Assembly (NCBI GenBank): GCA_030062745.1
Contig: CP099848.1
Location: forward strand, 23,252,378 to 23,316,377
DNA length: 64,000 bases
Source: Capitulum mitella
Lineage: Eukaryota; Arthropoda; Thecostraca; Pollicipedomorpha; Pollicipedidae
Direction: 5' to 3'
In this document: piece after piece, positions 7,661 to 62,129 of the stretch
Position numbering within the stretch: the first letter of the stretch is position 1
Layout: every line of letters begins with the position of its first letter
Notes under the pieces: generated by a model
Told to the model about the DNA's origin: nothing
Databases searched by the model: none
Seen by the model: only the letters and a program-made list of their open reading frames with translations
Position numbers and translations under genes: made by a program

Positions 7661-8212
7661 AATTAAGCTCCTTTTCCCACATGTGCAGAGCGATAATCGC
7701 CAACCGCACTTGCAGTAAACTAGCTCTCTGCTCATGTGATTGACTCGAATATTACCAGCTCACCTGATAAGCATTTAGATTAAAGAGGGGAAAAAACTTC
7801 GCGAAATCATGCAGTCCGGAGCATTCACGTAGTTTCCAGGTTTTCACTCGCAGTTGTGTTTTTATGCTGCGTTACGCCTTCAATGAAATCGCCTCGTATT
7901 CTTCTTATTCTGCAATGTGATCCATGCACAAAAACAAACGTTATTGAAGTGCAAAAGGCAGATATGGAAAAAAAACGATGGCAACTCGTGTTTGACACTG
8001 TATACACATCAGACCATCTGCTTCCGACGCCATACTGCGCGTGCCCGTCACACTACAGCGCGTGCCCGACGTTACCTTCCAGTGCGTGCTCGGCGTCACA
8101 GCACAGCGCGTGCTTGACATTACTCCCGGAACGTCCGACGCGTCTGTCCTGACGCAGCTCCTCCATCGGCAGTGTGCGGCGCGGTCATCCGACAGCCCGT
8201 CCTCTGTCCGCG
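7661..8212. other. Non-coding; short degenerate repeat near the end
   Basis: No coding frame is recognised. From about 8035 to 8130 an irregular unit around CAGCGCGTGC recurs three times. It leads into the 56-bp array that follows. Confidence 0.45.
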
Positions 8213-8848
8213 GGACACGGCCTGTCACCTGCCAGATCTGTCCCCTAACACGGCTGCTCTGTCCGCAGGGTGTGACCTGTCACCTGCCAGTTCAGTGCCT
8301 GCCCGTGCCATTTGCCAGTTCCCTAACACGGCTCCTCTGTTCGCAGGGTACGGCCTAGTGGCTTGCCAGTTCTGTCCCTAGTACGTTCCTCTGTCGGCAG
8401 GGTACGACCCGGTGACCTGCCATTTCTGTCCCCTAACACGGCCCCTCTGTCGGCAGGGTACGGCCCGGTGACCTGCCAGTTCTGCCCCATAACACGGTCC
8501 ATCTGTCGGCAGGGTACGGCCCGGTGACCTGCCAGTTCTGCCCCATAACACGGTCCCTCTGTCCGCAGGGTACGGCCCGGTGACCTGCCAGTTCTGCCCC
8601 ATAACACGTCCCCTCTGTCCGCAGGGTACGGCCCGGTGACCTGCCAGTTCTGCCCCATAACACGGTCCCTCTGTGCACAGGGTACGGCCCGGTGACCTGC
8701 CAGTTCTGCCCCATAACACGGTCCCTCTGTCGGCAGGGTACGGCCCGGTGACCTGCCAGTTCTGCCCCATAACACGGTCCCTCTGTCGGCAGGGTACGGC
8801 CCGGTGACCTGCCAGTTCTGCCCCATAACACGGTCCCTCTGTCCGCAG
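8213..8848 (+). repeat. 56-bp minisatellite repeating a 3' splice site and K2P filter codons
   Basis: The motif CAGGGTAC recurs with CAG at 8344, 8398, 8454, 8510, 8566, 8622, 8678, 8734, 8790 and 8846. The spacing is 56 bases throughout except the first step (54). More decayed units precede it from about 8213. Every unit has a pyrimidine-rich CTCTGTCNG stretch, a CAG, then GGTACGGCCCGGTG. The last unit runs directly into the K2P exon, where those bases encode the filter residues Y-G-P-V. The array therefore duplicates the intron end plus the first 14 exon bases. 56 is not a multiple of three, so units spliced in tandem would shift frame. Confidence 0.9.
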
Positions 8849-9078
8849 GGTACGGCCCGGTGGCGCCGCGGACCGGCGTCGGCAAGCTGGCCACCGTGCT
8901 GTATGCCGTTCTGGGCGTGCCGCTGATGCTGCTCTGGCTGACGGGGCTCGGCCAGCTGATGGCGGACGGCGTTCGCCGCGCGTACGGCCGGTGCGCGCCT
9001 GCCGGGCCGGCCTCCGGAGCGGCGCCGGACCGCCGGCCGCGGCCGGAACGCCGGCCCTCCCGCCTGACGGGCTCTGGC
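8849..9078 (+). CDS. Two-pore-domain K+ channel, exon with filter 1 and TM2 (partial)
   Basis: After a CAG acceptor the exon reads (G)GG TAC GGC, giving G-Y-G, then PVAPRTGVGKL and a hydrophobic stretch VLYAVLGVPLMLLWLTGLG followed by LMADGVRRAYGR. This is the K2P (KCNK) pattern after the first pore loop: GYG, a polar linker, TM2 with the G-x-P motif, and a basic cytosolic segment. An intron splitting the glycine codon of GYG is a known conserved feature of K2P genes and matches the acceptor here. K2P channels carry background K+ current in the plasma membrane. Homology is clear to about 8990. The exon end is uncertain: 9078 is an in-phase GT, 8991 another candidate. The exon with TM1 and the first pore helix was not found. 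Confidence 0.75.
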
Positions 9079-9764
9079 GTGCCCGGGACACGGTGCGGAG
9101 ACTTGGCCGCCCCTTTAGCGACCCCTGCAGGTCCCTGCGACCTGGAGTGCAGACCCCGGCGCTCTTGTAGTGACCCCTTCAGCTCTCGGGACACGGCATG
9201 GAGGCTCTGGAGTCCTTGGGAAGGTGCCTTCAGATCCCAGGACACAGCTCGGGGATCCCGGCATCAAAGCGGCATCCGCGACTGTGCGGGAGGCCCTGTG
9301 GCCCGATTCTGCTGACATAGAGAGCTCTGACTACGTTTGTCGCGTGCCGCGTGCCCGCCGGCCGAGCAGCGTTGGCTCGCGGGCTGAACGTGGCGACATC
9401 GCTGAAGAAATCGTCCAGCACTCTTCTGCCGGAGTAAGCGCTGACGATGCGGAGCCCAGCCGGCCTACCGCCGGCGAACTCGCGATCAGCGGCGTCAGCG
9501 GAGGGGCTGAAATATGTCGCAGAGCAGGCAGTGCTCCCGATGAGCCTCGCCAGCAGCCCGACAAGCCCGCCGCGTCATCCCGCAGCCAGGTGACGTTCTG
9601 CGCGCTGCGGGCCGAGCGCAGGCCGGCGCGGCCGCAGCCCCCGAGGCGGCAGAGCAGTCTGCCGGCCGGGTCCCAGACCGGCCGGCGTCCGGCCGAGCTG
9701 TCGGCGGCCGGCCGGCGGCGGTCGTCAGGCCGCGGCGCTCTCTGGCGAGGCGCCGCTCCTGCAG
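9079..9764 (+). other. Probable K2P intron, GC-rich
   Basis: The reading frame changes between the two K2P exons, so an intron is required. The stretch is GC-rich, contains irregular repeats around GGGACACGG and CCTGCGACCTGGAG, and ends in a pyrimidine-rich GCTCCTGCAG acceptor. Open frames across it on both strands have arginine- and alanine-rich translations typical of non-coding GC-rich DNA. Confidence 0.45.
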
Positions 9765-10274
9765 GGCGTCTCCTCCTCGCTGGCGATGGCGAGCACGGCG
9801 GCGGCGGCGGCTGCGGCGGCGGCGCCCCTCTCGGCCTCCTCCAGCGGCGACTCGGGCGTCTGCTCGGCCTCGCAGCCAGGGCCGGCGCTGAGCCGGCCGG
9901 CGGCGTCGCCGCGCGCCGCCACGCCGCGCCTGGACGGCGGCGTGCCCGCCTCGCTGCCGCTGGCCGTGCTGGCCGGCTACGTGTGCGCCGGCGCTGCCGG
10001 CTGCAGCTGGTGGGCCGGCTGGCGGCTTGTCGACGGCGCCTTCTTCTGGCTGCTGACGCTGGCGACAATCGGCGGTGGCGACGCGTGGCCGGGCGCGCCG
10101 GCGCCGCAGCTGCCGCTGCTCTGCGGCTGCCTCTACTTGCTGCTCGGCCTGGCGCTGGCCGCCATGTGCTTCAGCCTGCTGCAGGAGCGGCTGGTTGCCG
10201 CCTGCCGGCAGCTGGGCAGCTGCAGGGCGGAACCTGGCGACGGCCACTTGGACTGGCACCGACCGCAGGTGTAG
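9765..10274 (+). CDS. Two-pore-domain K+ channel, last exon with TM3, pore 2, TM4
   Basis: From the acceptor CTGCAG/GGC the frame runs 169 codons to TAG at 10272-10274. It opens with an alanine run (GCG repeats at about 9789-9830) and a Ser/Ala/Pro linker. TM3 follows (LPLAVLAGYVCAGAAG), then the pore helix (WRLVDGAFFWLLTLATIG), TM4 (LYLLLGLALAAMCFSLLQE) and a short basic tail. The segment order and the GLALAAMCF core are typical of K2P channels. The second filter reads T-I-G-G-G-D instead of the usual T-I-G-F/L/Y-G-D, a departure at a pore-lining position. The C-terminal tail is short. Several acceptors upstream are all phase 0, so the exon start is a best guess. Confidence 0.75.
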   Translation, partial: GVSSSLAMASTAAAAAAAAAPLSASSSGDSGVCSASQPGPALSRPAASPRAATPRLDGGVPASLPLAVLAGYVCAGAAGCSWWAGWRLVDGAFFWLLTLATIGGGDAWPGAPAPQLPLLCGCLYLLLGLALAAMCFSLLQERLVAACRQLGSCRAEPGDGHLDWHRPQV

Positions 10275-24253: not shown

Positions 24254-25140
24254 TCACGTCCCAAGGGTAAGGCCGCCAGTTGGAAAGCGCTGTTGCGCTT
24301 AATGTCATAGCCAGCACACGGACCAGTCAGCTGACGGTGGTCGGCCGGCGGGGTCTGGATCTGCGGCCATCCCCCCCCCCAGCCCGCCGCTCTCCGGCTG
24401 TCGCGATCCTGCGGGATGGAGTCGGGCAAAACTGCGCATTAAAGTCGCACGTAAACAGTGGTTCTGATTCAACTCATTTGCAGCCACGGACAAATTTACC
24501 GTGAAACGTGAGAGGCGTGACATCATCTCCATTCCCGCTAACCTGCGGCACGTCCAGGTTCTTACATAACACGGCAAAACCCTGCCAATGCACCATTACG
24601 TGTCGGCATCACCGGCGGTCTCCGGATGTTGGTGCACGCCGCACGCTGACGTGCCTCAATTTGGCCGCTCGTGAGCCCGACACAGTTCGACTGCGGCCCG
24701 GATCGGGGCCGTCAGGCCGGCCGGCCCGGTGTCACTCTCACGGCTGCAGCCACGCGTTGCCAAGCCGCCTCGCTGGCGCTGCCGGGCCGTTTCCGCTCAC
24801 GCCCCGGACCTGACGGTACAATGCCGTCCACTGGGCGCTCCGGCCGTGAACGGAACCAGGGCGGCACGCGGCCACGGCTTCCATCCCGTCGGGCCGTGCT
24901 GTAGTCGGTCTCACCGAATCGACCTAAAGCTAGTCCCACCAAACAGCCAGTGGCGCTTGGCGAAGATAAATGGCGCGGTTTGATGACCATTCTTTCCCTG
25001 CATTGGCATATGTATGCGAGCCATATGTAGGCCTAACGTTAAATTACGGGCTCATTGGTGATGAAATGGCAACACCGAAGTGCAGGCGGTTTCACCCTTG
25101 CTGCGCTGTCCTGTGGCTGGCCCCAACACGCTGTTCTGCA

Positions 25141-25572
25141 TGCGGTCTTGTCAGTCTGTCGTGTAGTCGGTCCCGTGATTCCGCCCTATAGTCGGTCCCA
25201 TTGGTCTGTCGTGTCGTCGGTCCCGTCAGTCTGTCGTTTAGTCGGTTCCGTCAGTTTGTCGTGTGGTCGGTCTCACCAGTTTGTCGTGTAGTCGGTCTCG
25301 TCAGTCTGCCGTGTAGTCGATTCCGTCAGGCTGTCGTGTACTCGGTCCCGTCAGGCTGTCCTATAGTCAATCCTGTGAATCCGCCCTATAATCGGTCCCG
25401 TCAGTCTGTCCTGTACCCAGTTCCGTCAGTCTGCCCTGCAGTCGGTCCCATCAGTCCGTCCTGCAGACGGTCTCATCAGACTGTCTTGCACTCGGTCCCG
25501 TTAGACTATGCTGCACTCGGTCCCACCAGACTGCCCTGCAGTGGGCCCCGTTAGACTGCCCTGTAGCCGGGC
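25141..25572. repeat. 25-bp minisatellite (copy 1)
   Basis: The unit is GTCAGTCTGTCGTGTAGTCGGTCCC with many variants. Copy 1 has two more units (50 bp) than its counterpart at 51547-51928, showing active unit-number change since the copies separated. Confidence 0.85.
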
Positions 25573-26102
25573 GACTCAGGCTGACAGGTCGGCCGTCAAC
25601 ACGACTCCCGCCTGCCAACCCCCTCCCCCTGACGGCTGGCTGCCCCGCCGCCGGCTGGGGAGGGGAAGGCTGACACCTGTCGCCTGTGCCGGCCGCGGCA
25701 GCACCCGGCCGCGTCTGTGCAGACGTGAATTAAACGCCCGCTGCCGTGACGCGGCGCAACAAGCCTGACCTGTCAGCGCCGCTGCCGCCTGCGGCTCTTC
25801 AAAATTGTCCTGCCAGAATCAGAGGAAGCTCCGCTGCCCGACTGCCGCGTTCCGCCGTCTGCCGCCGCCATAATTGCCATTCGCACCAGGCCGACCTCCA
25901 GCGCTACGCAGCCGCCCGCAGTACCACCACGCCTGATTTAGACATAACCCTATGACCTGTCCCTTGCAGCGTCACTACATCCGCTTCATATGTCACAACG
26001 GCAGGGCACTAATCGGGATTACTCGCCATACTTCTCTCTGGCTCATCGCGATCCTGCGAGATAGAATCAGGCAAAACTATAGCTATATGTATAGTAATCT
26101 TA

Positions 26103-26138
<36 letters not shown>

Positions 26139-26141
26139 TTT

Positions 26142-27170
26142 AAGATTACGACATAATGTGCACGTACCAGCTTCTTCTCGTTTTTTTCTCCACATCTCAT
26201 CTAAACTTTGGATTTCGAGAGGTAAATTATAAATTAAGCTTCCAAGGTTCGTCATTCATAATGAGAATATTAGGTTCAAAAACATCTGTTTGAAAGTACC
26301 GCGTTTTGGAGATTTTTTCTCCAGCGTCAGGAAAATATAAAATGCGCAGCGAAACGACAAATAGCCGCTTACAAGACAAACAATTAATTGCGCGTGCGAA
26401 AACCATAACTGATCTCACACTGAGAGGAAAGAACTGTCAATTCCAATACAGGGAAAGTGTCTCACATGATCTCTGTGGTTTGTTGAGGCTCAGGTTACGA
26501 TCGCGACTGTACAGGGCCTCGAGAACGGCTAAGCGACGATGATCATCACAAGAGTGAATGGCGGTGGTGTGTCGGGCCCAGGGTGCACCGTCTCTTAGGT
26601 GCGTGGTTAACAGTCTAGGCGGTCTAGACAAGTGCACGGTTAACCGTCTACACGGTTAACTGCGCACCTGAGGGACGGCGCACCCAGGGAGCACATGGCA
26701 GAAAAACACAAGACATCACCAGACAGGTCATCGCCGACACCATTGACCGTCATTTAGTCATGAAATGATCGCCGTCGTTTAGTTATTCTCGAGATCCAGT
26801 ACATTCGTGGCCGCAACCCGAGTCTCAACAAACAACGAAAATCATGTCTGACACTTTCCCTGTATTAGGTCTCTTCTTTTCTCTCAGCGAGAGATCAGTT
26901 ATGGTTTTTGCAAGCGCATTGAATTGTTGGTCTTGTAAGCGTCGATTTGTCGTTTCGCTGCGCATATTATATTTATCTGACGATGGAGAAACAGTCGCCG
27001 AAACGTTGTAATTCCAAATAGATGTTTTTGAACCCAATATTCGCATCATGCATGAACAACCTTGGAACCATTATTTATAACTTACGTCTGAAACCAAAAA
27101 TCCGATCAGAGATGTGGAGAAAAACGAGAAGGTGGTACGTGCACGTTATGCCGTGATCTTTAATCAACGT
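26142..27170. mobile_element. ~1-kb imperfect palindrome (copy 1)
   Basis: Read on the - strand, the right half reproduces the left half from end to end. The left end AAGATTACGACATAATGTGC matches the complement of the right end, AAAGATCACGGCATAACGTG. The match continues through GGTTCAAAAACATCT, GCGCAGCGAAACGAC and TACAGGGAAAGTGTC to the centre near 26635, which holds nested GGTTAAC inverted repeats. The arms are about 500 bases with many substitutions, and there is no unique interior. (TA)n tracts flank both ends, consistent with insertion into TA-rich DNA. The arms have similar ORF-like peptides on opposite strands, which follows from the palindrome and is not evidence of coding. Confidence 0.85.
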
Positions 27171-27598
27171 TGCAAGAAAAGTCGTACCTAAGTCCACGAA
27201 TAGATATGTATATATATACATGTATATACATATATGCGTAATACTACATATTTCTCAAGTTTGGCTTTACCACGTAGCGCGGACGGGACTGGCCGACAGT
27301 CTCCTGCTCCCTCGCGTTTTTTCCCGGAGTTCCCACGCCTACGCCGGACGCCCGATCGGTCCTGTGTTTCGTCTCTGGGGCTGTTCTGGGCCGCCGCCAG
27401 GCGCAGCCTGACAGCCACCCCGTCCAGTGCCGCCGCCGACGGCCAGCTGGCCGCCGAGTGGGCCCGTCGCCGCCGACGATCGACGGCCGGTCGACAGCTG
27501 CCGCCGGGAGCGCGCGGCCCGAGCGGGCGGCACAGCTGGTCTGAAGACCTCGCGCAGCTGGTCCGCAGACCGAACCGAATTGGTCTGAGACCTGACAG

Positions 27599-27626
27599 AG
27601 CCGTATCCTGAAGACAGGATACGGCT
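27599..27626. repeat. Perfect hairpin, 12-bp stem (copy 1)
   Basis: The arms AGCCGTATCCTG and CAGGATACGGCT flank the loop AAGA. It is unchanged in copy 2 at 54010-54037. Confidence 0.9.
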
Positions 27627-28483
27627 GGTCCAAAGACCTGACGCAGCTGGTGTAAAGATCCCATGCAGCTTGTCTGAATACCCGGCTCGGCGGGTCTGAA
27701 AAGCCAGCACAGCGATCCCGAAAATTACCTCTAGCCAAGCACGGCTCTAGGTGGAAACTTTACGGCGTGGGATCCGACCTCCCATAGCCGTGTGCCCCCA
27801 CGCAGCCTCGGTCTCTGAGTCACCGACCCAGAGCCACGCATTCCCAGAAGCCTGATCCCACGTGCCTGGACAGGCTCGAAATCGTTACGCTCAGCTCACT
27901 TGTGAGCGAATCAGTAATCAGTCTGATGGCATTTCTATGTCATATAAACGTCGTACGGATTCAGAGCGTAATACTGGCTTCACGGTTCACTGCGAGCGCT
28001 GGAAGTCGAAGTTGATTTAGGCGATTCGCGTTTACCGTTCACAGTTTGCTAATGAGCTTGACGAGAAGGGCAGTTGCCTTTCAGATGATAATGTGCGCGG
28101 GATGCAGGAAGAAGCACATTAAAGATCGCATGTTATATTTTCACCAGCGCACACCGTGGTTAACAGCAGAGCAGCTCTACGAACACAGGCAGCCGCCGAG
28201 TGGCAGTGACTTGTTACGCCTGCTCCCGCGACACCGCAATTCGCCCGCAGAACACGGCCGACTCCGAAGCGGACAGCCTTCTCCGCGACGACACGGCACA
28301 CACTCACAAAAACCTGAGCATCACTCAGACCTCTCGACCGGAATCAGATCTCCGCACGCGCCACTGCAGAACAGCCCCGGTGCCGTAACACCAGGGGCCG
28401 CCGTCCCGGCCTCGGGCCCGGTCGGGCCGGCCTCAGCGTCTGACGCGGTCGGCACGGGACGCCGCGGCCGGCGCCGGCGGCCG

Positions 28484-28804
28484 TCAGTCGGCCGCCTCCT
28501 CGGCCCAGGAGCCGCGCGCCAGCTGGTCCAGCGCGTCCGACATGAGGCACAGCTCGGCGTCGATGGACGAGCCGTTCGACGAGGCCGCGCGCTTCACGTC
28601 TTCGCAGCTGGCCGACGCGCTGCTGGCGCTGCTGGCGCTGCTCAGCTCCAGCTCCAGCTCGGCGTCGTCCAGCCGCAGCTGCGCCACCAGCGCGCGCACG
28701 TGCGCCAGCAGGGCGCGGTTGTGCGAGAGCAGCTGGTTGGTGCGCGCCTCCGCCTCCTCGCGCGCGGTCGTTTCGGCCTCCAGCTGTTCCCGCAGCAGGT
28801 GCAC
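28484..28804 (-). CDS. NOS1AP: NOS1AP/CAPON-like, C-terminal exon (copy 1)
   Basis: After the acceptor CCATTCCAG the exon encodes 106 residues and a TGA stop, starting VHLLREQLEAETTAREEAEA. That helical stretch matches the coiled coil that follows the PTB domain in NOS1AP/CAPON, the adaptor that links neuronal nitric oxide synthase and Scribble-type scaffolds to other partners. It is in phase 0 with the PTB exon at 33149-33979, across an intron of 4344 bp. The joined product would be about 371 residues from the first good ATG. A Ser/Ala-rich tail ends in EEAAD, not the EIAV-type PDZ ligand that binds nNOS in vertebrate CAPON. The exon is very GC- and CpG-rich, unlike its partner exon. Copy 2 differs at three positions, all synonymous. 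Confidence 0.85.
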   Translation of the reverse strand: MHLLREQLEAETTAREEAEARTNQLLSHNRALLAHVRALVAQLRLDDAELELELSSASSASSASASCEDVKRAASSNGSSIDAELCLMSDALDQLARGSWAEEAAD

Positions 28805-29602
28805 CTGGAATGGAGGGCGTCGGTCAGCACGGGGACGCTGGACACCGGCCACCTCACCCGCTCCCGGCTGGACGAAACCGTCCGCCGGCAGGGTTTCTAG
28901 GCAAAAACCGACACGAGTGATTTCTTTTCTTAGCCAACCGGCGAAGGGTGCATTTGAGACAGGCCCTACTGCTACAGCCTACGTGCATTCTGACGGCAGG
29001 AGACTGGAGACGGCCATGCAGAGGTTTACAGGCTGGCGGCGCGCCGCCTGCGACGCAGCGGACACCTTTCCCCAATGGCACACAAAAGCAACGACTCCGA
29101 TCGGGTCACACCTTTACGTCGTCATCACAACTTTGCCACGGAACCCTGTGCACTGGTCAATCGACAGACATACTGACGTCACGAAGCAAAAACCAAGGAC
29201 CGCCACTGACATGACACATTCGCTACCTGGCAACGGTAACAAACAATGGAGCAGACACCAGGGAACGGGCCTGCCGTTTTTTGGCTCTTGACGCCACTTT
29301 TTCTCCGTTGCATGCAACCAATGCCTCCCGGTCTGCCAGTTCCAACCCTCTTCACCTACTTTTTCATGGGTTGCTGCGCTTTTGAAAGCCAACGAAAGGT
29401 TCCCGTTAACTATGACAAAAAGAGACAAGGACCATATCGATGTGTATATGCAGGGACATATGAATGGTAAAACGCCAGTGGATTCACCGGCCGTACTGAG
29501 AATCGAGACCCTATGTTAGTGACTGCGTTCACAAGCTCAAGTCGACTTGAACACGAAAAAGCAAACGGAAAACAAGAAGGCAAAGCTTTTTAGGTTTAAG
29601 CC

Positions 29603-29603
29603 A

Positions 29604-29660
<57 letters not shown>
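29603..29660. repeat. (TA)n microsatellite (copy 1)
   Basis: This is a long TA/TATG run in the NOS1AP intron. The copy 2 counterpart at about 56028-56115 differs in length and contains a TG run. Confidence 0.95.
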
Positions 29661-29662
<2 letters not shown>

Positions 29663-29746
29663 GTGTGTCGTGTGTATATACATGATTTTGACATGAGTTG
29701 TTGAACACACAAGCTGTTGAAGATTAAGTTATTTCGGAACAGACAT

Positions 29747-29864
29747 GAGTAAAACGGGTTTCATTCCATAAAACCCCAAATATGACGGCTTGACATGCCT
29801 TCGTCAGTGGGATCAAGCAATACCGTAATATTTGGGTTTTTACAACATCAAACCCGTTTTGCTG
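29747..29864. repeat. Short inverted repeat in the NOS1AP intron (copy 1)
   Basis: Arms of about 36 bases (GAGTAAAACGGGTTTCATTC at the left, and the complement of AACATCAAACCCGTTTTGC at the right) flank a spacer with TGACGGCTTGACATGCC. It follows a TA microsatellite and fits the end of a small DNA transposon. Confidence 0.6.
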
Positions 29865-30869
29865 ACGTGTACTCCAAAATAACCTCCCAGTTTAAGATTA
29901 ACATGCGTAAAAAAACCACTAGTTTCAATGAAACAAGATTAAATCACAGCAAACATGGAACGTCGAAATCAACATCCAGTTTTCTCTTTTCTGTTTCCTT
30001 CCAGTTGCGCTCAAAATAATTTCCTGTCCCGGATACTAAACTCTTTGATGACCTAGGTAGCAAACTACTCAGAGTTTATCTCGGCAGCAAATTACTCAAC
30101 GTTCAAAGGCATGTTAAAACCATAAGCAGATTCCAGCCACGTCTGTGTGCGAAGAAACGACTCTGAATCGACTCGGCTCTCACTTTCTCGGACTCGGGCT
30201 CGGTCACAAGTCTAGATCAATGTCGATCGAGCCAATCTCCGGCAGGCGTCCGGGTGTGAGCGTCACAAACCGACGAGGCCGACCGATCGCCGCTCAGGCG
30301 TAACGTCACGCAGCGGACGCCAACGCCCGCCACGGCCTCGCCCGGCGGTGACTCACACGCCGGGGGGAGGGTGCGCTCCACCGCGGACGGGACAAATCAG
30401 GGCCATTCCGGCGGCGGCGGGACGGGCCAAAAACAGAGGCCGAGACCCGGGACTCCGCCCCGGGGTACGGCCTCGGTCTCGGGCCGCCGCCGCCGCGGCG
30501 CACCCGGTACGCACGTGCAGCCTGGGAGCGGCCGGACCTCCGCTCCGGCACTGGCGGTCCGGTGACTAAGTCCGTGTGGAAATCCAGTTCCGGTGCGCCC
30601 CCGCTAGGGCCGCCCAGGCCGGTGACGTCTCCCCGTCCGGGCGCCGCCGGCCGCCGGCAGCGGCCCGCCGACCACCTTATCCGGATTCACCTCGCGACGG
30701 CGGCCGCGAGCCGGCGCTGCGCCGCCGATCGCGATCAATTGTTGCCCATGAAGGCGCCATCGGCGCCGTTTCTCGGGGCAGCCGCCGTGCCAACGTCACA
30801 ACACGTGCTGACCAAGCCCACTTCCACCGTTCCCGGGCGGTACCGAGAATGAGACGCACCAACCCGGAC

Positions 30870-31082
30870 CATGGGCGTAGCCAGGATTTCGCCGAGGAGG
30901 GGACCAGGACAACCCTAACCCTCCTTATACTCGAAATTCCTGGGATTTCGGCCACTTTATTTTCGAGTCCCTGAAACTTTCACTCATTTCCACTTTTAGG
31001 GTAAAAAGAAACGTTCCATTTTCAACTCCAAGAGGGGGGGGGGAGGGTGGGGCGGGCCATGACCCCCTTGGCTACAATGCCA
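30870..31082. mobile_element. MITE-like element with GGGCGTAGCCAGG end (copy 1)
   Basis: GGGCGTAGCCAGGATTTCG at the left pairs loosely with the complement of CCCCCTTGGCTAC at the right. Poly-G/C lies inside the right end. It is non-coding, about 213 bp, and resembles the element at 14091-14347. Confidence 0.55.
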
Positions 31083-31597
31083 TGACTCAGAGGCCGCCAA
31101 TCTTGACTCAACCCTGACGCCCGTTCTTGCCGCAAGCTCCCTCGTGACAAGGCCGATATCGGCAGGTGCTGCAACACCAAACTGGGCCGTGGGAACGACG
31201 CCAATTGACGAAAAATGAGAGCGTTTTTGGTACAAGGAAAAAACGACTTTTTGCCGGGCAGTTCCAGACGAATTCCGCAGCAAGTTGCTGAGTGGCCAGC
31301 GGAGCAGGCGTCCACTTTCCTTTCAGGCAAATGAAATTCCTTTCAGGCAATATTGTGATCTATGAGCAATCCCGTCCAGTTTTATATTCCCGAACGCTGT
31401 CAGTTCCGTTATTCCAAACAACCTTCGATTCCAACCCGATACACATCGATAAGAGACAATGGACACAGAACCGGCCGATTCCCGGCACACACCAACTGAA
31501 CGTCCAGGCTGCGCTCAGGACACACCGACTCAACGTCCAGCCTGCGCTCAGCGCACAATGCCTGAAAGTCCCGTCTGCGCCAGGCACACAATGACAA

Positions 31598-32063
31598 GGT
31601 CCAGCCTATCACATCTCACTGTAGGGCTGTTCCCGGGTAGCCAACAGAAGGTCCAGCCTATCACATCTCACTGTAGGGCTGTTCCCGGATAGCCAACAGG
31701 AGGTCCAACCTATTACATCTCACTGTAGGACTGTTCCCGGATAGCCAACAGAAGGTCCAGCCTATTACATCTCACTATAGGACTGTTTCCGGGCAGCAAA
31801 CAGAAAGTCCAGCCTATCACATCTCACTGTAGGACTGTTTCCGGGTAGCGAACAGAAGGTCCAGCCTATGACATCTCACTGTAGGACTGTTTCCAGGTAG
31901 CCAACAGAAGGTCCAGTCTATTACATCTCACTGCAGGACTGTTTTCGGGTAGCCAACAGAAGGTCCAGCCTATCACATCTCACTGTAGGGCTATTCCCGG
32001 ATAGCCAACAGAAGGTCCAGCCTACCACATCTCACTGTGGGGCTGTCGCCGGGTCGCCAATCA
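31598..32063. repeat. 52-bp minisatellite (copy 1)
   Basis: Nine units start at 31598 and then every 52 bases. The consensus begins GGTCCAGCCTATCACATCTC and continues through GTAGGGCTGTTCCCGG to TAGCCAACAGAA. The copy 2 array is 84 bp shorter and scrambled at its start. Confidence 0.95.
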
Positions 32064-32359
32064 TATCTAAACGAAGCACCGGCCGTGGTAACCCGCTACA
32101 CCTGGCCAGAGCACAGCTTCGGGCCAGTCGGCGATACCAAGGCCGAGCACCGTCCAGCGCGGAGCGGCCACGTCTGCATAGGGCCGTCAACTCGGGCCGG
32201 CCGGAAATCGCCGACCGGAGCACGTAACGACCGGGGCCGCAGCCGGACGGCGCCGCGCCGCGCGGGCCGCCGGCCGGGGCAACGGCCTCCGCCGGGCGGA
32301 GCACGAAAAACGCCGGAGAACGCACCAGCTTCCCTGGGACCGACTTTGCTAAGTTGACG

Positions 32360-33273
32360 TTTGTATGCTTTTCTGTCCTTGGGTAATCCTTTTCTGTTCT
32401 GTCCTTGGGTAATGAATGATGTGTTAAAAATAATTTTACCCAGTTCACCAGGCTGACAAGTAACTAATAATTTTTTGGGATAGTCTACCAAATCAAACTG
32501 TGAAGGGAACAATACAAAACTGGCCCATGATGGGCTATGAGCATGGATCTATCATGGGAGATGCAACAACTGATCTCACTTGATGCAGTCTTCTGGACAC
32601 AGTAAACCCATTTAACTGGGCCAATGGATATGGTCCATCCTGATATCTGGACAAATGGACATGGTCCATCCCTTTGACTAGACCACTGTCTACACCCCAT
32701 CCCTTTATGCAGACCACTGTACAGTGCAGAGCCCATCACTTTATCCAGACCACTGGGCATAGTCTACACTTTTATCCAAACCACTGGCCCTACACATGGA
32801 CCCCTGGACCCTACATATCTCACAGGGGCCCAGTCCACATTGTACCACAGACAAGCCACACTGTATTGTTACTGGTCTGGTCTGGTCTAGTCTCTTGTTG
32901 GCATATCCCACCAGAATCTGACACTCTGCCCTAGTATCAGACTTGGAGTTCAGAGCACAGACAGGGCCACTGGTGGCTGATGCTGAAACCCCTCTAGGAC
33001 TATGTCAAGGATGCCTGGTTGAAGGCTTTTCCATATTTGCAAATGCTTGTGGAGAATGATAACAGTTCATGCCAAAGCAAGTCTTCCTTTTCATGGATGC
33101 CAACACTGCTTGCTACAGATATCTGGACTAAATTAAAATAGATCTCACCTGTGACATTGCAACTTGTGTCTGATGCTGCTGCTGGCTGAGTTGCTCCTTC
33201 AGTAGCTGCCACTCATGGTGGGAGGAAAGAGGAGCACCAGCTTCTGGCAGTGTCATGACAGATCCCAGAGGAT
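32360..33273. other. 914-bp stretch with no CpG
   Basis: Reading every base, the last CpG on the left is at 32358-32359 and the next is at 33274-33275. The stretch covers the 5' end of the NOS1AP intron and the 3' part of the PTB exon. TG and CA are abundant, as after long-term deamination of methylated CpG. The flanking DNA to the left is among the most CpG-rich in the window. Confidence 0.9.
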
Positions 33274-33979
33274 CGGCCAGTGGAGATGTCAACATGCCAG
33301 ATGGTGCCGAGACATCACTGTCTCCTAGTGGAGGAGACAGTGGCTCCAGATGCAGAGGCCGCTGCAGGGTAGTGTCTATGACCTCGTCCACATCTGACGC
33401 ACCCTCAGGATCATCCTCATAATTCATCTTATGACACACTTCAAAAGCTTGACCAATGGTTCTCACCATCTTCAAGGCTTTGTTTGTTTTTGAGGCTTTG
33501 AAGACAGTGCACTTGAACACACTGGAGTTTCCATCTCTGGCAATGTAACTGAAGATCTTCATATCTTGAGAATCATGAGACACATAAAATATTCTATAAA
33601 TAGGGTGGTGTGCCAGAAGAAACTTACTTTCATCAGGAGATTTACTCCTTTTCCTTCTTTTCGTTTTGTGCACAACCTTGACACCACCTGTGCTCACTGT
33701 GATGGCCACTTTCTTCTTCTTTATTCCTCTCGCTTTGAACTCATATCGAATCCTCCTCATTGCTGAAACAATTTCCAGCCTGGTAGTAGGTCTTGGCAAA
33801 TCCAGCGTCCCTATACACTTTGCCTGGAATGTTATACCTTCTTCAAAGGCATCTTCAGGATACAGAGGAACCCGACAATCATTTTCAGCATCATCTTGGA
33901 CTAGATCGTATTGCTTTTTCGTCATTTTGCTGACAACAGTCATTTGCTTAACTGGTATCTGGCTTTTGAAGATATTCAA
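33149..33979 (-). CDS. NOS1AP: NOS1AP/CAPON-like, PTB-domain exon (copy 1)
   Basis: This exon encodes an N-terminal PTB domain matching NOS1AP/CAPON. Landmarks include [44 protein letters not shown], the basic [43 protein letters not shown] and [16 protein letters not shown] domains of this family bind partner proteins such as Dexras1 and synapsins. The first in-frame ATGs are at 33943 and 33925. The frame extends upstream to a possible acceptor (CTATTCAG) at 33980. The exon ends ATGTCACAG/GTGAGA at 33149, phase 0, leading to the coiled-coil exon at 28804. The region is one exon here although the vertebrate gene is split into many. A Leu at 33799 replaces the Val that copy 2 and the wider family carry. 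Confidence 0.9.
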
Positions 33980-34722
33980 CTGAATAGCAGAGCACTATAA
34001 GAACGTTTCATTTTCCTTGTATTACACTATCTTCGCATTCCAAAGGAGCGATGAGCACCAACAGATTCCCTTTTGTTGACCAAGACGGTTGGGTCGATCG
34101 ATATATTATAAGCACCTGGTGTACCACGTTCACAAAAAAAGTCCAAAATCAAACCGTCCACCCACAACTTCAAGACAACGGCCAATGAGGCAAACGAAGT
34201 TGCATCACTGAAGAATTGCGGACAGCAACACCCCCGTGCACCCGCCGTCGCTTCCGCGCACAACGGCAGCCGGATCAACAATGCGCTCAAACCACGCACC
34301 GTGGCGAATCCATACATGTTCATTGAAAAAAAAAACACTCAAGGCTTCAGTACAGCGTCGTATAAAATTATATTTGAGACATCATTATGACGATTAATAA
34401 AGAAATTAATAAAATCATAATCGAAGTTATACATTTAATGATGTCAAAAATTTATTTCATATACTTCGGTTCGCCGTATCACAGTACCTAAAACAATACG
34501 ATAGTGAAGCAAAGATAAATTTTATTAGCGACATTTCTGCCTTCCCAAGTTAGTTTATTTCATGAGAGCTGACTTTTATTACCGTTTTGTATTTCCAACA
34601 AATTTTTCTGGTAATAAACAAACGTTCATATTTGCTAAATGAGACAATTTCGGAGGTATCATTTCAATTGTGGTGCCTTTCACCGGCGCGCTCGCAGCAA
34701 TGCTGAAAAGTGGGGAGAGTAC
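33980..34722 (-). promoter_or_regulatory. Upstream region of NOS1AP copy 1
   Basis: Upstream of the PTB exon, normal CpG frequency returns and a GC-rich patch lies at about 34220-34310. That is where a promoter or 5' UTR exon would be expected. An open frame on the - strand (34027-34338) is interrupted by a TAA in copy 2, so it is not coding. No TATA box was seen in the right place. Confidence 0.35.
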
Positions 34723-50423: not shown

Positions 50424-50923
50424 NNNNNNNNNNNNNNNNNNNNNNNNNNNNNNNNNNNNNNNNNNNNNNNNNNNNNNNNNNNNNNNNNNNNNNNNNNNNN
50501 NNNNNNNNNNNNNNNNNNNNNNNNNNNNNNNNNNNNNNNNNNNNNNNNNNNNNNNNNNNNNNNNNNNNNNNNNNNNNNNNNNNNNNNNNNNNNNNNNNNN
50601 NNNNNNNNNNNNNNNNNNNNNNNNNNNNNNNNNNNNNNNNNNNNNNNNNNNNNNNNNNNNNNNNNNNNNNNNNNNNNNNNNNNNNNNNNNNNNNNNNNNN
50701 NNNNNNNNNNNNNNNNNNNNNNNNNNNNNNNNNNNNNNNNNNNNNNNNNNNNNNNNNNNNNNNNNNNNNNNNNNNNNNNNNNNNNNNNNNNNNNNNNNNN
50801 NNNNNNNNNNNNNNNNNNNNNNNNNNNNNNNNNNNNNNNNNNNNNNNNNNNNNNNNNNNNNNNNNNNNNNNNNNNNNNNNNNNNNNNNNNNNNNNNNNNN
50901 NNNNNNNNNNNNNNNNNNNNNNN
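50424..50923. other. Assembly gap of 500 N
   Basis: The run of N is exactly 500 bases, a conventional scaffold-gap size. The second copy of the duplication starts at the first base after it. Confidence 1.
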
Positions 50924-51546
50924 ATGACATCATCTCCATTCCCGCTAACCGCGGCACGTCCAGGTTCTTACATAACACGGCAAAACCCTGCCAATGCATT
51001 ATTACGTGTCGGCATCGCCGGCGGTCTCCGGATGTTGGTGCACGCCACACGCTGACGTGCCTCAATTCGGCCGCTCGTGAGCCCGACACAGTTCGACTGC
51101 GGCCCGGATCGGGGCCGTCAGGCCGGCCGGCCCGGTGTCACTCTCACGGCTGCAGCCACGCGTTGCCAAGCCGCCTCGCTGGCGCTGCCGGGCCGTTTCC
51201 GCTCACGCCCCGGACCTGACGGTACAATGCCGCCCACTGGGCTCTCCGGCCGTGAACGGAACCAGGGCGGCACGCGGCCACGGCTTCCATCCCGTCGGGC
51301 CGTGCTGTAGTCGGTCTCACCGAATCGACCTAAAGCTAGTCCCACCAAACAGCCAGTGGCGCTTGGCGAAGATAAATGGCGCGGTTTGATGACCATTCTT
51401 TCCCTGCATTGGCGCCATGGTGTGCGAGCCATATGTAGGCCTAACGTTAAATTACGGGCTCATTGGTGATGAAATGGCAACACCGAAGTGCAGGCGGTTT
51501 CACCCTTGCTGTGCTGTCCTGTGGCTGGCCCCAACACGCTGTTCTG

Positions 51547-51928
51547 CATGCGGTCTCGTCAGTCTGTCGTGTAGTCGGTCCCGTGATTCCACCCTATAGT
51601 CGGTCCCATTGGTTTGTCGTGTCGTCGGTCCCGTCAGTCTGTCGTTTAGTCGGTTCCGTCAGTTTGTCGTGTAGTCGGTCTCGTCAGTCTGCCGTGTAGT
51701 CGATCCCGTCAGGCTGTCGTGTACTCGGTCCCGTCAGGCTGTCCTATAGTCAATCGTGTGAATCTGCCCTATAATCGGTCCCGTCAGTCTGTCCTGTACC
51801 CAGTTCCGTCAGTCTGTCCTGCAGTCGGTCCCATCAGTCCGACCTGCAGACGGTCTCATCAGACTGTCTTGCACTCGGTCCCGCCAGACTGCCCTGCAGT
51901 GGGCCCCGTTAGACTGCCCTGTAGCCGG
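51547..51928. repeat. 25-bp minisatellite (copy 2)
   Basis: This is the same unit as at 25141-25572 with two fewer units. Confidence 0.85.
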
Positions 51929-52442
51929 GCGACTCAGGCTGACAGGTCGGCCGCCAACACTACTCCCGCCTGCCGACCCCCTCCCCCCTGACGGCTGGCT
52001 GCCCCGCCGCCGGCTGGGGAGGGGAAGGCTGACACCCGTCGCCTGTGCCGACCGCGGCAGCACCCGGCCGCGTCTGTGCAGACGTCAGTTAAACGCCCGC
52101 TGCCGTAACGCGGCGCAACAAGCCTGACCTATCAGCGCCGCTGCCGCCTGCGGCTCTTCAAAACTGTCCTGCCAGAATCAGAGGAAGCTCCGCTGCCCGA
52201 CTGCCGCGTTCCCCGTCTGCCGCCGCCGTAATTGTCATTCGTACCAGGCCGACCTCCAGCGCTACGCAGCCGCCCGCAGTACCAGCACGCCTGATTTAGA
52301 CATAACCCTGTGATCTGTCCCTTGCAGCGCCACCACATCCGCTACATATGTCACAAAGGCAGGGCAGTAATGGGGATTACTCGACATACTTCTCTCTGGC
52401 TCATCGCGATCCTGCGAGATAGAATCAGGCAAAACTACAGCT

Positions 52443-52482
52443 ATATATGAATATATATATATATATCGCTCATTTAAGATTA

Positions 52483-52532
<50 letters not shown>
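52443..52532. repeat. (TA)n microsatellite flanking the palindrome (copy 2)
   Basis: Two TA runs are separated by a duplicated CATTTAAGATTACGA segment. In copy 1 the site has a single shorter run, so the palindrome's end sequence has been partly duplicated within the microsatellite here. Confidence 0.85.
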
Positions 52533-52534
<2 letters not shown>

Positions 52535-52541
52535 CTCATTT

Positions 52542-53554
52542 AAGATTACGACATAAAGTGTACGTACCAGCTTCTTCTCGTTTTTCCCCACATCTCATCT
52601 AAACTTTGGATTTCAAAAGGTAAGTTATAAATTAAGCTTCCAAGGTTTGTCATTCATAATGAGAATATTAGGTTCGAGAACATCTGTTTGAAAGTACAGC
52701 GTTTTGGAGATTCTTTCTCCATCGTCAGCAAAATATAAAATGCGCAGCGAAACGACAAATAGCCGCTTACAAGACAAGCAATTAATTGCGCGTGCAAAAA
52801 CCATAACTGATCTCACACTGAGAGGAAAGAACTTCAGTTCCAATACAGGGAAAGTGTCTCACATGATTTCCGTGGTTTGTTGAGGCTCAGGTTACGATCG
52901 CGACTGTACAGGGCCTCGAGAACGGCTAAGCGACGATGATCATCACATGACTGAATGGCGGTGGTGTGTCAGGCCCAGGGTGCGCCGTCTCTTAGGTGCG
53001 TGGTTAACAGTCCAGACGGTCTAGACAAGTGCACGGTTAACCGTCTACGCGGTTAACTGCGCACCTGAGGGACGGCGCACCCAGGGAGCACATGGCAGAA
53101 AAACACAAGACATCACCAGACAGATCATCGCCGACACCATTCACCGTCATTTAGTCATGAAATGATCGCCGTCGTTTAGTTATTCTCGAGCTCCAGTACA
53201 TTCGTGGCCGCAACCCGCGTCTCAACAAACAACGAAAATCATGTCTGACACTTTCCCTGTATTAGATCTCTTTTTTTCTCTCAGCGTGAGATCAGTTATG
53301 GTTTTTGCATGTGCACTGAATTGTTGGTCCTGTAAGCGTTGATTTGTCGTTTCGCTGCGCATATTATATTTATCTGAAGATGGAGCAACATTCGCCGAAA
53401 CGTTGCAATTTCAAATAGATGTTTTTGAACCCAATATTCGCATCATGCATGAACAACCTTGGAACCATTATTTATAACTTACTTGTCAAACCAAAAATCT
53501 GATCAGAGATGTGGAGAAAAACGAGGTGATACGTGCACGTTATGCCGTGATCTT
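52542..53554. mobile_element. ~1-kb imperfect palindrome (copy 2)
   Basis: This is the counterpart of 26142-27170 with the same arms and centre. The central GCGCCGTCTCTTAGGTGCG is one base closer to perfect pairing than in copy 1. Confidence 0.85.
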
Positions 53555-53592
53555 TAATCAACGTTGCAAAAAATGTCGTACCTAAGGCCACG

Positions 53593-53624
<32 letters not shown>

Positions 53625-54009
53625 TATATGTATATACATATATGCGTAATACTATATATTTCTCAAGTTTGGCTTTACCGCGTTGCGCGGACGGGACTGG
53701 CCGACAGTCTCCTGCTCCCTCGCGTTTTTTTCCGGAGTTCCCACGCCTACGCCGGACGCCCGATCAGTCCTGTGTTTCGTCTCGGGGGCTGTTCTGGGCC
53801 GCCGCCAGGCGCAGCCTGACAGCCACCCCGTCCAGTGCCGCCGCCGCCGACGGCCAGCTGGCCGCCGAGTGGGCCCGTCGCCGCCGACGATCGACGGCCG
53901 GTCGACAGCTGCCGCCGGGAGCGCGCGGCCCGAGCGGGCGGCACAGCTGGTCTGAAGACCTCGCGCAGCTGGTCCGCAGACCGGACCGAATTGGTCTGAG
54001 ACCCGACAG

Positions 54010-54037
54010 AGCCGTATCCTGAAGACAGGATACGGCT
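54010..54037. repeat. Perfect hairpin, 12-bp stem (copy 2)
   Basis: This is identical to the hairpin at 27599-27626. Confidence 0.9.
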
Positions 54038-54902
54038 GGTCCAAAGACCTGACGCAGCTGGTGTAAAGATCCCACGCAGCTTGTCTGAATACCCGGCTCG
54101 GCGGGTCTGAAAAGCCAGCACAGCGATCCCGAAAATTACCTCTAGCCAAGCACGGCTCTAGGTGGAAACTTTACGGCGTGGGATCCGACCTCCCATAGCC
54201 GTGTGCCCCCACGCAGCCTCGGTCTCTGAGTCACCGACCCAGAGCCACGCATTCCCAGAAGCCTGATCCCACGTGCCTGGACAGGCTCGAAATCGTTACG
54301 CTCAGCTCACTTGTGAGCGAATCAGTAATCAGTCTGATGGCATTTCTATGTCATATAAACGTCGTACGGATTCAGAGCGTAATACTGGCTTCACGGTTCA
54401 CTGCGAGCGCTGGAAGTCGAAGCTGATTTAGGCGATTCGCTTTTACCGTTCACAGTTTGCTAATGAGCTTGGCGAGAAGAGCAGTTGCCTTTCAGATGTG
54501 CGCAGGATGCAGGAAGAAGCACATTAAAGATCGCATGTTATATTTTCACCAGCGCACACCTTGGTTAACAGCAGAGCAGCTCTACGAACACAGGCAGCCG
54601 CCGAGTGGCAGTGACTTGTTACGCCTGCTCCCGCGACACCGCAATTCGCCCGCAGAACACGGCCGACTCCGAAGCGGACAGCCTTCTCCGCGACGACACG
54701 GCACACACTCACAAAAACCTGAGCATCACTCAGACCTCTCGACCGGAATCAGATCTCCGCACGCGCCACTGCAGAACAGCCCCGGTGCCGTAACACCAGG
54801 GGCCGCCGTCCCGGCCTCGGGCCCGGTCGGGCCGGCCTCAGCGTCTGACGCGGTCGGCACGGGACGCCGCGGGCGCGCCGCCGCGGCCGGCGCCGGCGGC
54901 CG

Positions 54903-55223
54903 TCAGTCGGCCGCCTCCTCCGCCCAGGAGCCGCGCGCCAGCTGGTCGAGCGCGTCCGACATGAGGCACAGCTCGGCGTCGATGGACGAGCCGTTCGACG
55001 AGGCCGCGCGCTTCACGTCCTCGCAGCTGGCCGACGCGCTGCTGGCGCTGCTGGCGCTGCTCAGCTCCAGCTCCAGCTCGGCGTCGTCCAGCCGCAGCTG
55101 CGCCACCAGCGCGCGCACGTGCGCCAGCAGGGCGCGGTTGTGCGAGAGCAGCTGGTTGGTGCGCGCCTCCGCCTCCTCGCGCGCGGTCGTTTCGGCCTCC
55201 AGCTGTTCCCGCAGCAGGTGCAC
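54903..55223 (-). CDS. NOS1AP: NOS1AP/CAPON-like, C-terminal exon (copy 2)
   Basis: This is the same 106-residue coiled-coil exon as 28484-28804 with three synonymous differences, the same acceptor and the same EEAAD end. It is in phase 0 with the PTB exon at 59512-60342 across a 4288-bp intron. A long open frame on the opposite strand (54457-55710) exists only because of a 14-bp insertion downstream of the stop and is broken in copy 1, so it is not a gene. Confidence 0.85.
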   Translation of the reverse strand: MHLLREQLEAETTAREEAEARTNQLLSHNRALLAHVRALVAQLRLDDAELELELSSASSASSASASCEDVKRAASSNGSSIDAELCLMSDALDQLARGSWAEEAAD

Positions 55224-56027
55224 CTGGAATGGAGGGCGTCGGTCAGCACGGGGACGCTGGACACCGGCCACCTCACCCGCTCCCGGCTGGACGAAACCGT
55301 CCGCCGGCAGGGCTTCTAGGCAAAAACCGACACGAGTGATTTCTTTTCTTAGCCAACCGGCGAAGGGTGCATTTGAGACAGGCCCTGCTGCTACAGCCTA
55401 CGTGCATTCTGACGGCAGGAGACTGGAGACGGCCATGCAGAGGTTTACAGGCTGGCGGCGCGCCGCCTGCGATGCAGCGGACACCTTTCCCCAATGGCAC
55501 ACAAAAGCAACGACTCCGATCGGGTCACGCCTTTACGTCGTCATCACAACTTTGCCACGGAACCCTGTGCACTGGTCAATCGACAGACATACTGGCGTCA
55601 CGAAGCAAAAACCAAGGACCGCCACTGACATGACACATTCGCTACCTGGCAACGGTAACAAACAATGGAGCAGACACCAGGGAACGGGCCTGCCGTTTTT
55701 TGGCTCTTGACGTCACTTTTTCTTCGTTGCATGCAACCAATTGCCTCCCGGTCTGCCAGTTCCAACCCTCTTCACCTACTTTTTCATGGGTTGCTGCGCT
55801 TTTGAAAGCCAACGAAAGGTTCCCGTTAACTATGACAAAACGAGACACGGACCATATCGATGTGTATATGCAGGGACATATGAATGGTAAAACGCCAGTG
55901 GATTTACCGGCCGTACTGAGAATCGAGACCCTATGTTAGTGACTGCGTTCACAAGCTCAAGTCGACTTGAACACGAAAAAGCAAACGGAAAACAAGAAGG
56001 CAAAGCTTTTTAGGTTTAAGCCATATA

Positions 56028-56029
56028 TG

Positions 56030-56102
<73 letters not shown>

Positions 56103-56115
56103 ATATATATATATT
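56028..56115. repeat. (TA)n(TG)n microsatellite (copy 2)
   Basis: This is the counterpart of 29603-29660 with a longer, rearranged TA/TG run. Confidence 0.9.
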
Positions 56116-57316
56116 GACATGAGTTCGTAACACGATTTTACTCAGTTGTTGAACACACAAGTTGTTGAAGATTAAGTTATTTCGGAACAGACATGAGTAA
56201 AACGGGTTTCATTCCATAAAACCCCAAATATGACGGCTTGACATGCCTTCGTCAGTGGGATCAAGCAGTACCGAAACATTTGGGTTTTTACAACATCAAA
56301 CCCGTTTTGCTCACGTGTACTCCAAAATAACCTCCCAGTTTAAGATTAACATGCGTAAAAAAATCACTAGTTTCAATGAAACAAGATTAAATCACAGCAA
56401 ACACGGAACGTCGAAATTAACATCCAGTTTTCTCTTTTCTATTTCCTTCCAGTTGCGCTCAAAATAATTTCCTGTCCCGGATACCAAACTCTTTAATGAC
56501 CTAGGTAGCAAACTACTCAGCGTTTATCTCGGTAGCAAATTACTCAACGTTCACGGGCATGTTAAAACCATACGCAGATTCCAGCCACGTCTGAGTGCAA
56601 AGAAACGACTCTGAATCGACTCGGCTCTCACTTTCTCGGACTCGGGCTCGGTCACAAGTCTAGAACAATGCCGATCGAGCCAATCTGCGGCAGGCGTCCG
56701 GGTGTGAGCGTCACAAACCGACGAGGCCGACCGATCGCCGCTCAGGCGTAACGTCACGCAGCGGACGCCAACGCCCGCCACGGCCTCGCCCGGCGGTGAC
56801 TCACACGCCGGGGGAGGGTGCGCTCCACCGCGGACGGGACAAATCAGGGCCATTCCGGCGGCGGCGGGACGGGCCAAAAACAGAGGCCGAGACCCGGGAC
56901 TCCGCCCCGGGGTACGGCCTCGGACTCGGGCCGCCGCCGCCGCGGCGCACCCGGTACGCACGTGCAGCCTGGGAGCGGCCGGACCTCCGCTCCGGCACTG
57001 GCCGTCCGGTGACTAAGTCCGTGTGGAAATCCAGTTCCGGTGTGCCCCCGCGCGGCGCCGACCAGGCCGGTGACGTCTCCCCGTCCGGGCGCCGACGGCC
57101 GCCGGCAGCGGCCCGCCGACCACCTTATCGGGATTCACCTCGCGACGGCGGCCGCGAGCCGGCGCTGCGCCGCCGATCGCGATCAATTGTTGCCCATCAA
57201 GGCGCCATCGGCGCCGTTTCTCGGGGCAGCCGCCGTGCCAACGTCACAACACGTGCTGACCAGGCCCACTTCCACCGTTCCCGGGCGGTACCGAGAATGA
57301 GACGCACCAACCCGGA

Positions 57317-57530
57317 CCATGGGCGTAGCCAGGATTTCGCCGAGGAGGGGACCAGGACAACCCTAACCCTCCTTATACTCGAAATTCCTGGGATTTCGGC
57401 CACTTTATTTTCGAGTCCCTGAAACTTTCACTCATTTCCACTTTTAGGGTAAAAAGAAACGTTCCATTTTCAACTCCAAGAGGGGGGGGGAAGGTGGGGC
57501 GGGCCATGACCCCCTTGGCTACAATGCCAT
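57317..57530. mobile_element. MITE-like element with GGGCGTAGCCAGG end (copy 2)
   Basis: This is the counterpart of 30870-31082, present at the same place in both copies, so it was inserted before the copies separated. Confidence 0.55.
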
Positions 57531-58044
57531 GACTCAGAGGCCGCCAATCTTGACTCAACCCTGACGCCCGTTCTTGCCGCAAGCTCCCTCGTGACAAGGC
57601 CGATATCGGCAGGTGCTGCAACACCAAACTGGGCCGTGGGAACGACGCCAATTGACGAAAAATGAGAGCGTTTTTGGTACAAGGAAAAAACGACTTTTTG
57701 CCGGGCCGTTCCAGACGAATTCCGCAGCAAGTTGCTGAGCGGCCAGCGGAGCAGGCGTCCACTTTCCTTTTAGGCAAATGAAATTCCTTTCAGGCAATAT
57801 TGTGATCTATGAGCAATCCCGTCCAGTTTTATATTCCCGAACGCTGTCAGTCCCGTTATTCCAAACAACCTTCGATTCCAACCCGATACACATCGATAAG
57901 AGACAATGGACACAGAACCGGCCGATTCCTGGCACACACCAACTGAACGTCCAGGCTGCGCTCAGGACACACCGACTCAATGTTCAGCCTGCGCTCAGCG
58001 CACAATGACTGAACGTTCCGTCTGCGCCAGGCACACAATGACAA

Positions 58045-58426
58045 GGTCCAGCCTATCACACCTCACTGTAGAACTGTTCCCGGGTAGCCAACAGAAGGTC
58101 CTATCAGAAGGTCCTAACAGAAGCCTATCACATCTCACTGTAGGGCTGTTCCCGGATAGCCAACAGGAGTTCCAACCTATTACATCTCCCTGTAGGACTG
58201 TTCCCGGGTAGCCAACAGAAGGTCCAGCACATTACATCTCACTGCAGGACTGTTTCCGGGTCGCCAACAGAAAGTCCAGCCTACCACATCTCATTGCAGG
58301 ACTGTTTTCGGGTAGCCATCAGAAGGTCCAGCCTATCACATCTCACTGTAAGGCTGTTCCCGGATAGCCAACAGAAGGTCCAGCCTACCACATCTCACTG
58401 TGGGGCTGTCGCCGGGTCGCCAATCA
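58045..58426. repeat. 52-bp minisatellite (copy 2)
   Basis: This array matches the one at 31598-32063 but is 84 bp shorter, with an irregular segment (GGTCCTATCAGAAGGTCCTA) replacing part of the early units. Confidence 0.9.
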
Positions 58427-61963: not shown

Positions 61964-62129
61964 CCTAACCTCACCTAACCCTAATGCAACCCTAACCCTG
62001 ACCTATCCTAGCCTAACCTAAACTAACCTAACCTAACCTAACCTAACCTAACCTAATGTAACCTAGCCTAGCCTAGCCTAGCCTAGCCTAACCTAACCTA
62101 ACCTAACCTAACCTAACCTAACCTAACCT
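61964..62129. repeat. Interstitial (CCTAA)n telomere-like tract
   Basis: About 165 bases are built of CCTAA repeats, with variants CCTAG, CCTCA and CCTGA, including an inner block of CCTAG units. CCTAA is the complement of TTAGG, the ancestral arthropod telomere repeat. Degenerate units and ordinary DNA on both sides show it is interstitial, not a chromosome end. Confidence 0.85.

Follow-up and report, generated by a model that had tools for sequence, protein, structure and literature searches.

A mirage-like minisatellite of duplicated 3' splice sites at a K2P channel exon of the barnacle Capitulum mitella

We found that an intron-exon boundary of a K2P channel gene in the barnacle Capitulum mitella is repeated in a tandem array. 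The array is a minisatellite with a 56-bp unit that extends, decayed units included, over approximately positions 8143-8862 of the window (the whole 64,000-nucleotide stretch of contig CP099848.1 that was analysed) and has about 12-13 units in total. As a preliminary description of this DNA had proposed, each unit copies a 3' splice site together with the first post-intron codons of a genuine K2P filter exon. Judged by its sequence, the array matches a published structure, the "mirage". Probably, it is an acceptor-type mirage minisatellite that was born by duplication of a 56-bp boundary and was then expanded and homogenised. The parts of the array and of its host gene in the window are:

8143..8226, + strand: the oldest units, decayed, at the array's 5' edge, found by local alignment, with a CAG near 8171 and a copy lacking the AG near 8210
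8227..8414, + strand: three diverged, irregular units with CAG acceptors at 8266, 8344 and 8398
8415..8806, + strand: seven near-identical 56-bp units (0-4 mismatches) with CAG at 8454, 8510, 8566, 8622, 8678, 8734 and 8790
8807..8862, + strand: terminal unit with the true intron-exon boundary, CAG at 8846-8848 and exon from 8849; the sole acceptor that keeps the frame
8849..8988 (3' end putative), + strand: K2P exon with the end of the filter and TM2, YGPVAPRTGVGKLATVLYAVLGVPLMLLWLTGLGQLMADGVRRAYG; matches PF07885 and, by phmmer, TASK2 chains
9594..10274, + strand: downstream open frame with TM3, the second pore (TIGGGD) and TM4; PF07885 E 3.8e-07, profile 3-78

The array was confirmed as real and was slightly larger than first claimed. 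TRF reported one array, at 8324-8862, with a period of 56, 9.7 copies, 92% matches and a score of 882. The hexamer CAGGGT starts at eleven positions (8266, 8344, 8398, 8454, 8510, 8566, 8622, 8678, 8734, 8790 and 8846). Successive starts are 78 and 54 bp apart, and the remaining eight intervals are all 56 bp, which makes nine acceptors regular and leaves two older, irregular ones; the regularity claimed for ten units thus holds, but for nine acceptors. The consensus unit consists of TAAC, a pyrimidine tract, CAG and GGTACGGCCCGGTG, the last being 14 exon bases. In 10 of the 11 units the A of TAAC sits at a constant distance, 18 nt 5' of CAG, and TAAC resembles the branch-point consensus.

The units differ in age. 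The final eight differ from the consensus by 0-4 bases, and the first three, compared in the same register, by 14, 21 and 25, a part of which is due to two of them being out of register. An array start at 8213 had been claimed. An array is indeed there, but decayed units reach upstream of that position: a remnant unit at 8143-8195 aligned locally to the consensus with a score of 19.5 (best of 200 mononucleotide shuffles, 15.5), and a further copy of the boundary, with its AG lost, was seen by eye at about 8200-8212. The AG at 8171, in a decayed unit, is still weakly acceptor-like (score 6.4). That is, the centre of the array is homogenised and the units at its intron-side edge have diverged; the exon-side edge has not.

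The exon next to the array encodes part of a K2P channel. Its reading frame from 8851 is YGPVAPRTGVGKLATVLYAVLGVPLMLLWLTGLGQLM; it matched PF07885 with E 6.3e-06 (profile 41-77) and TASK2 chains with a phmmer E of 1.7e-06, TASK2 being the best solved relative. The downstream frame at 9594-10274 also matches TASK chains. The second pore lies in a different frame from the filter/TM2 exon, implying at least one more intron. Within the 64-kb window a pore-helix regular expression found no first-pore helix, and the candidate P1-helix exon sits outside it, at C10:23227854. There, a pattern search of 38 kb upstream on the + strand gave a single match, WTFGSALLYSVSVITTV-G|gtgggt, in the right phase. 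(In paralogs the pore-helix expression also produced false matches, one in L048 and one array copy in L033.) From the coordinates, the intron between the P1 exon and the array acceptor would be 33.4 kb. Two pore domains were found, in the P1 helix, the exon from 8849 and the frame at 9594-10274, and we infer that these pieces are spliced into one gene. A second array (L051 4877-5284, 33 bp x 12.4) lies just 5' of the P1 exon in the same K2P gene; it looks like an acceptor array (score 19.0; maximum of 500 shuffles, 16.5), the start of the P1 exon being putative.

The first filter reads GYG across the intron. The second reads GGG (10071-10079, within TIGGGD), so a canonical filter, which is usual rather than defining, is not present in both pores. 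GYG, GFG or GLG was found in all 30 other channel loci (L002-L031, one filter each). Given the GGG second filter, the channel might not conduct, or the K2P gene might be decaying, in which case the array may be just one symptom of that decay.

That the array sits at an invariant functional motif had been regarded as notable, but the link to the filter appears incidental. PF07885 has 78 matches in this genome, and we compared the 17 other exons whose match starts at profile position 38-40. In all 17 the first Gly codon of GYG is interrupted by a phase-1 intron (AG|GN-TAC), and with the exon in the window the count is 18 of 18. The filter motif is inside the unit because K2P genes carry an intron at this codon. 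The codons for Y-G-P-V had been attributed to every unit; of the 10 upstream copies, 7 have exactly TAC GGC CCG GTG.

We compared the acceptors in the array for their effect on the reading frame and for their strength. When the P1 exon was joined to each of them, all ten upstream copies led to a stop 11-44 residues past the junction. Only the acceptor at 8846-8848 reads through TM2 and keeps the channel frame, that is, the authentic boundary is the one that adjoins the exon. Extensions of 168 and 336 nt, although multiples of three, stop as well because the repeat in the shifted frame contains TGA. Scored with a model built on the 17 native K2P acceptors, the true site had 13.8 and the copies 9.0-15.2, with the copy at 8622 above the true site; among the window's AGs, the true site and the copies all rank above the 98th percentile. 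The copies thus score like the true site, and it is position beside the exon, not sequence strength, that singles out 8846-8848. With copies as strong as the true site, splicing could be leaky, and noisy or allele-dependent splicing from the array is possible.

These properties would also fit an array with a function. The ten upstream acceptors might compete with the true site, divert transcripts to nonsense-mediated decay and so set channel output, the more so in longer alleles. The stops after all ten and the scores like that of the true site speak for this reading, as does the VNTR in intron 18 of human ABCA7 (PMC5954066). Its 25-bp unit carries a donor; a copy that is used shifts the frame, and retention of one unit leads to a premature stop. 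As reported there, longer VNTRs go with lower expression, and length is also strongly correlated with skipping of the following exon. However, the unit-retention isoform amounts to only ~2% and is independent of VNTR length according to the same report, and the published accounts of lancelet mirages report no aberrant mRNAs from them. In addition, L040 is the sole other K2P acceptor, among 17, that adjoins an array, and its sequence is unrelated, so nothing suggests a shared device. We consider such a function unlikely.

We also considered whether each unit could be a microexon, as had been suggested: an 11-nt exon, GGTACGGCCCG, between its own acceptor and a donor GTGACC. Of the 10 upstream copies, 8 do have GGTGACC after the acceptor, which favours the idea, but it is not in every unit as first described; the true exon has GGTGGCG. 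In contrast to GTGACC, which has C at +5, G is at +5 in all nine exon-end donors from this genome (those of seven P1 exons, L038 and L080, each presumed to be a used donor; some later copies in the L080 array lack the +5 G). The intron left between two such exons would span 45 nt, its branch-point-like A lying at ~25 nt from its donor, and an 11-nt exon shifts the frame. We judge the microexon reading very improbable.

The unit appears to be private to this locus. A 26-base pattern for the exon-bearing half of the unit, searched through 477 Mb with up to three mismatches, gave 10 matches, all within the array, and a pattern for the intron-bearing half gave 9, likewise all within the array; the reversed controls gave 0 in both cases. 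A 648-base query matched one place in the genome, in a search mode that skips very common words. The absence of the 26-base pattern outside the array, together with the empty reversed control, excludes a chance origin. Neither half was found outside the array in the barnacle's own 477-Mb genome at up to three mismatches. The idea that a dispersed or centromeric satellite landed at the exon by chance draws on the abundance of minisatellites in this genome, where 177 kb of exon-centred loci contained 52 distinct arrays. Against it stand the confinement of both halves to the array and the fact that the unit includes the gene's own exon start. At up to three mismatches both searches refute a dispersed satellite, and we give this origin almost no credence.

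An assembly artefact that repeated the boundary is hardly more credible. The window does have a 500-N gap with a near-duplicate 10-kb block behind it, which could raise the suspicion, but the gap is more than 40 kb from the array, and the units have private differences and decay in order towards the 5' edge.

Our results are best compared with the mirages of lancelets, described as minisatellite-like tandem duplications of intron-exon boundaries (PMC3087553, PMC3902484). According to these papers, mirages occur in lancelet Adh3 (units of 10-72 bp), in globins (BflGb6/BflGb9, ~150-160 bp) and also in troponin C and PGBD5; many units retain AG/GT signals, unit number varies, there is concerted evolution inside the clusters, the boundaries of which escape homogenisation, and regular splicing is reported to be undisturbed. 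The K2P array has tandem units that contain the intron end and the exon start, retained splice signals, an authentic boundary, a homogenised centre and a diverged edge, like the mirages as described. Unlike them, it is in an arthropod, that is, in another phylum and another gene, and it has ~12-13 units of 56 bp in which the exon share is only 14 bp. The array had been called unusual; in kind it is not, since mirages were already published for lancelets and additional probable arrays, at donors too, were found in the same genome (see below).

Other known systems are less close. The ABCA7 VNTR resembles the K2P array in that its unit carries a splice signal; it differs in being human, on the donor side, and in that its length polymorphism was measured, as was its influence on expression and on exon skipping (PMC5954066). 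In human segmentally duplicated genes, boundary minisatellites are likewise described as able to alter splicing and to form new introns, but these are in recent primate paralogs and half of the detected repeats are in coding sequence (PMC2812944). Minisatellites near alternative exons are reported in C. elegans (PMC4039745). Among the matches listed (titles and abstract openings), the searched literature contained no duplicated splice sites in arthropods; searches for barnacle tandem repeats and for minisatellite with splice acceptor each found nothing. The K2P array is perhaps the first mirage outside lancelets.

We propose a tandem duplication of 56 bp that took in the 3' end of the 33-kb intron together with the first 14 bases of the K2P exon. 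Slippage or unequal exchange would have expanded and homogenised the duplicated units, leaving decayed units behind at the intron-side edge. The duplicated unit is a complete 3' splice-site cassette with the TAAC branch-point-like site, the pyrimidine tract and CAG. Such an array may be tolerated since one intact boundary stays beside the exon. Exon definition, through signals in the exon and the downstream donor, would favour the exon-proximal copy, and transcripts from the ten upstream copies, having early stops, would be removed by nonsense-mediated decay. In our view the array is more probably a side effect of rapid minisatellite turnover, neutral or at a slight cost, than a device for regulation.

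Among loci of this genome that were examined for other reasons, further arrays appear to span splice junctions. Five, listed here, probably do so:

L031, 1274-1440: acceptor array of an ion-channel gene, 57 bp x 2.9, three copies, with an in-frame TGA after both upstream copies
L026, 1147-1391 (reverse-complement coordinates): acceptor array of an ion-channel gene, 71 bp x 3.5 by TRF, three copies listed
L080, 1689-2085: donor array, 23 bp x 17.3, at the end of a myosin-head exon, with the GYPSR codons repeated
L038, 3262-3384 (gene orientation): donor array of an ion-channel gene, 29 bp x 4.1, four CAG|GT copies at 29-30 bp
L033, 613-800 (gene orientation): donor array at a P1 exon of an ion-channel gene, 75 bp x 2.4, three copies spaced 75-79 bp

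The junctions in L026 and L031 were placed by frame and motif. In L080, 17 donor-like sites were listed, 13 of which are CAGGT[GA]. Several candidates were set aside. The copies in L040 (45 bp x 5.2) end at the acceptor without exon bases, and L059 (18 bp x 2.1) was dropped as weak. By eye, the arrays near exons in L067, L015, L017 and L072 span no junction. Arrays in L039 and L033 that end ~40 and ~60 bp before the acceptor were left out of the count.

We tested for a preference of arrays for splice sites in 60 exon-centred loci (30 ion-channel and 30 myosin), comparing array coverage at exon edges with that in the flanks. Edges were taken only if the profile match stopped within the profile. 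The 39 acceptor edges showed no enrichment: coverage was 0.0 from -40 to +40 bp and 0.018-0.040 farther out. At the 43 donor edges coverage was 0.033-0.060 within 40 bp and 0.018-0.070 farther out. Random placement, which allowed at most one unit into the exon, predicted 0.63-1.35 straddling arrays once double-counted arrays were removed (0.63-1.45 before). By eye there were three in the 60 loci (L026, L031 and L080), with a Poisson P of 0.026-0.155 depending on the array threshold. These three were chosen by inspection, and the excess over chance is thus a hint, not proof. We offer only tentatively, as somewhat less probable than its opposite, the notion that splice junctions of this genome, donors and acceptors alike and in genes as unrelated as K2P channels and myosin, are recurrent birthplaces or refuges of minisatellites. 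If that notion is right, mirages, far from being peculiar to lancelets, would be general among certain marine animals with large populations and would constantly supply splice noise and new introns.

Should mirages prove common beyond lancelets, they would provide natural experiments on how the spliceosome selects a single acceptor out of ten equals. They would also point to a testable way of gaining introns, through proto-splice sites duplicated in tandem. In genome annotation, arrays of this kind are expected to give rise to false alternative acceptors and mis-assembled exons.

The window has further repeats. The 10-kb block is present in two copies, at 24518-34712 and 50925-61075, with 94.7% and 98.7% identity in two parts. 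The second copy begins directly 3' of the 500-N gap (50424-50923) and may thus be an unpurged haplotig. Both copies contain a minisatellite with a 25-bp unit (25143-25570 and 51551-51928) and one with a 52-bp unit (31596-32060 and 58122-58423). In addition, an array of AACCT (TTAGG-type), the arthropod telomere repeat, lies within the chromosome at 61962-62129 of the window.
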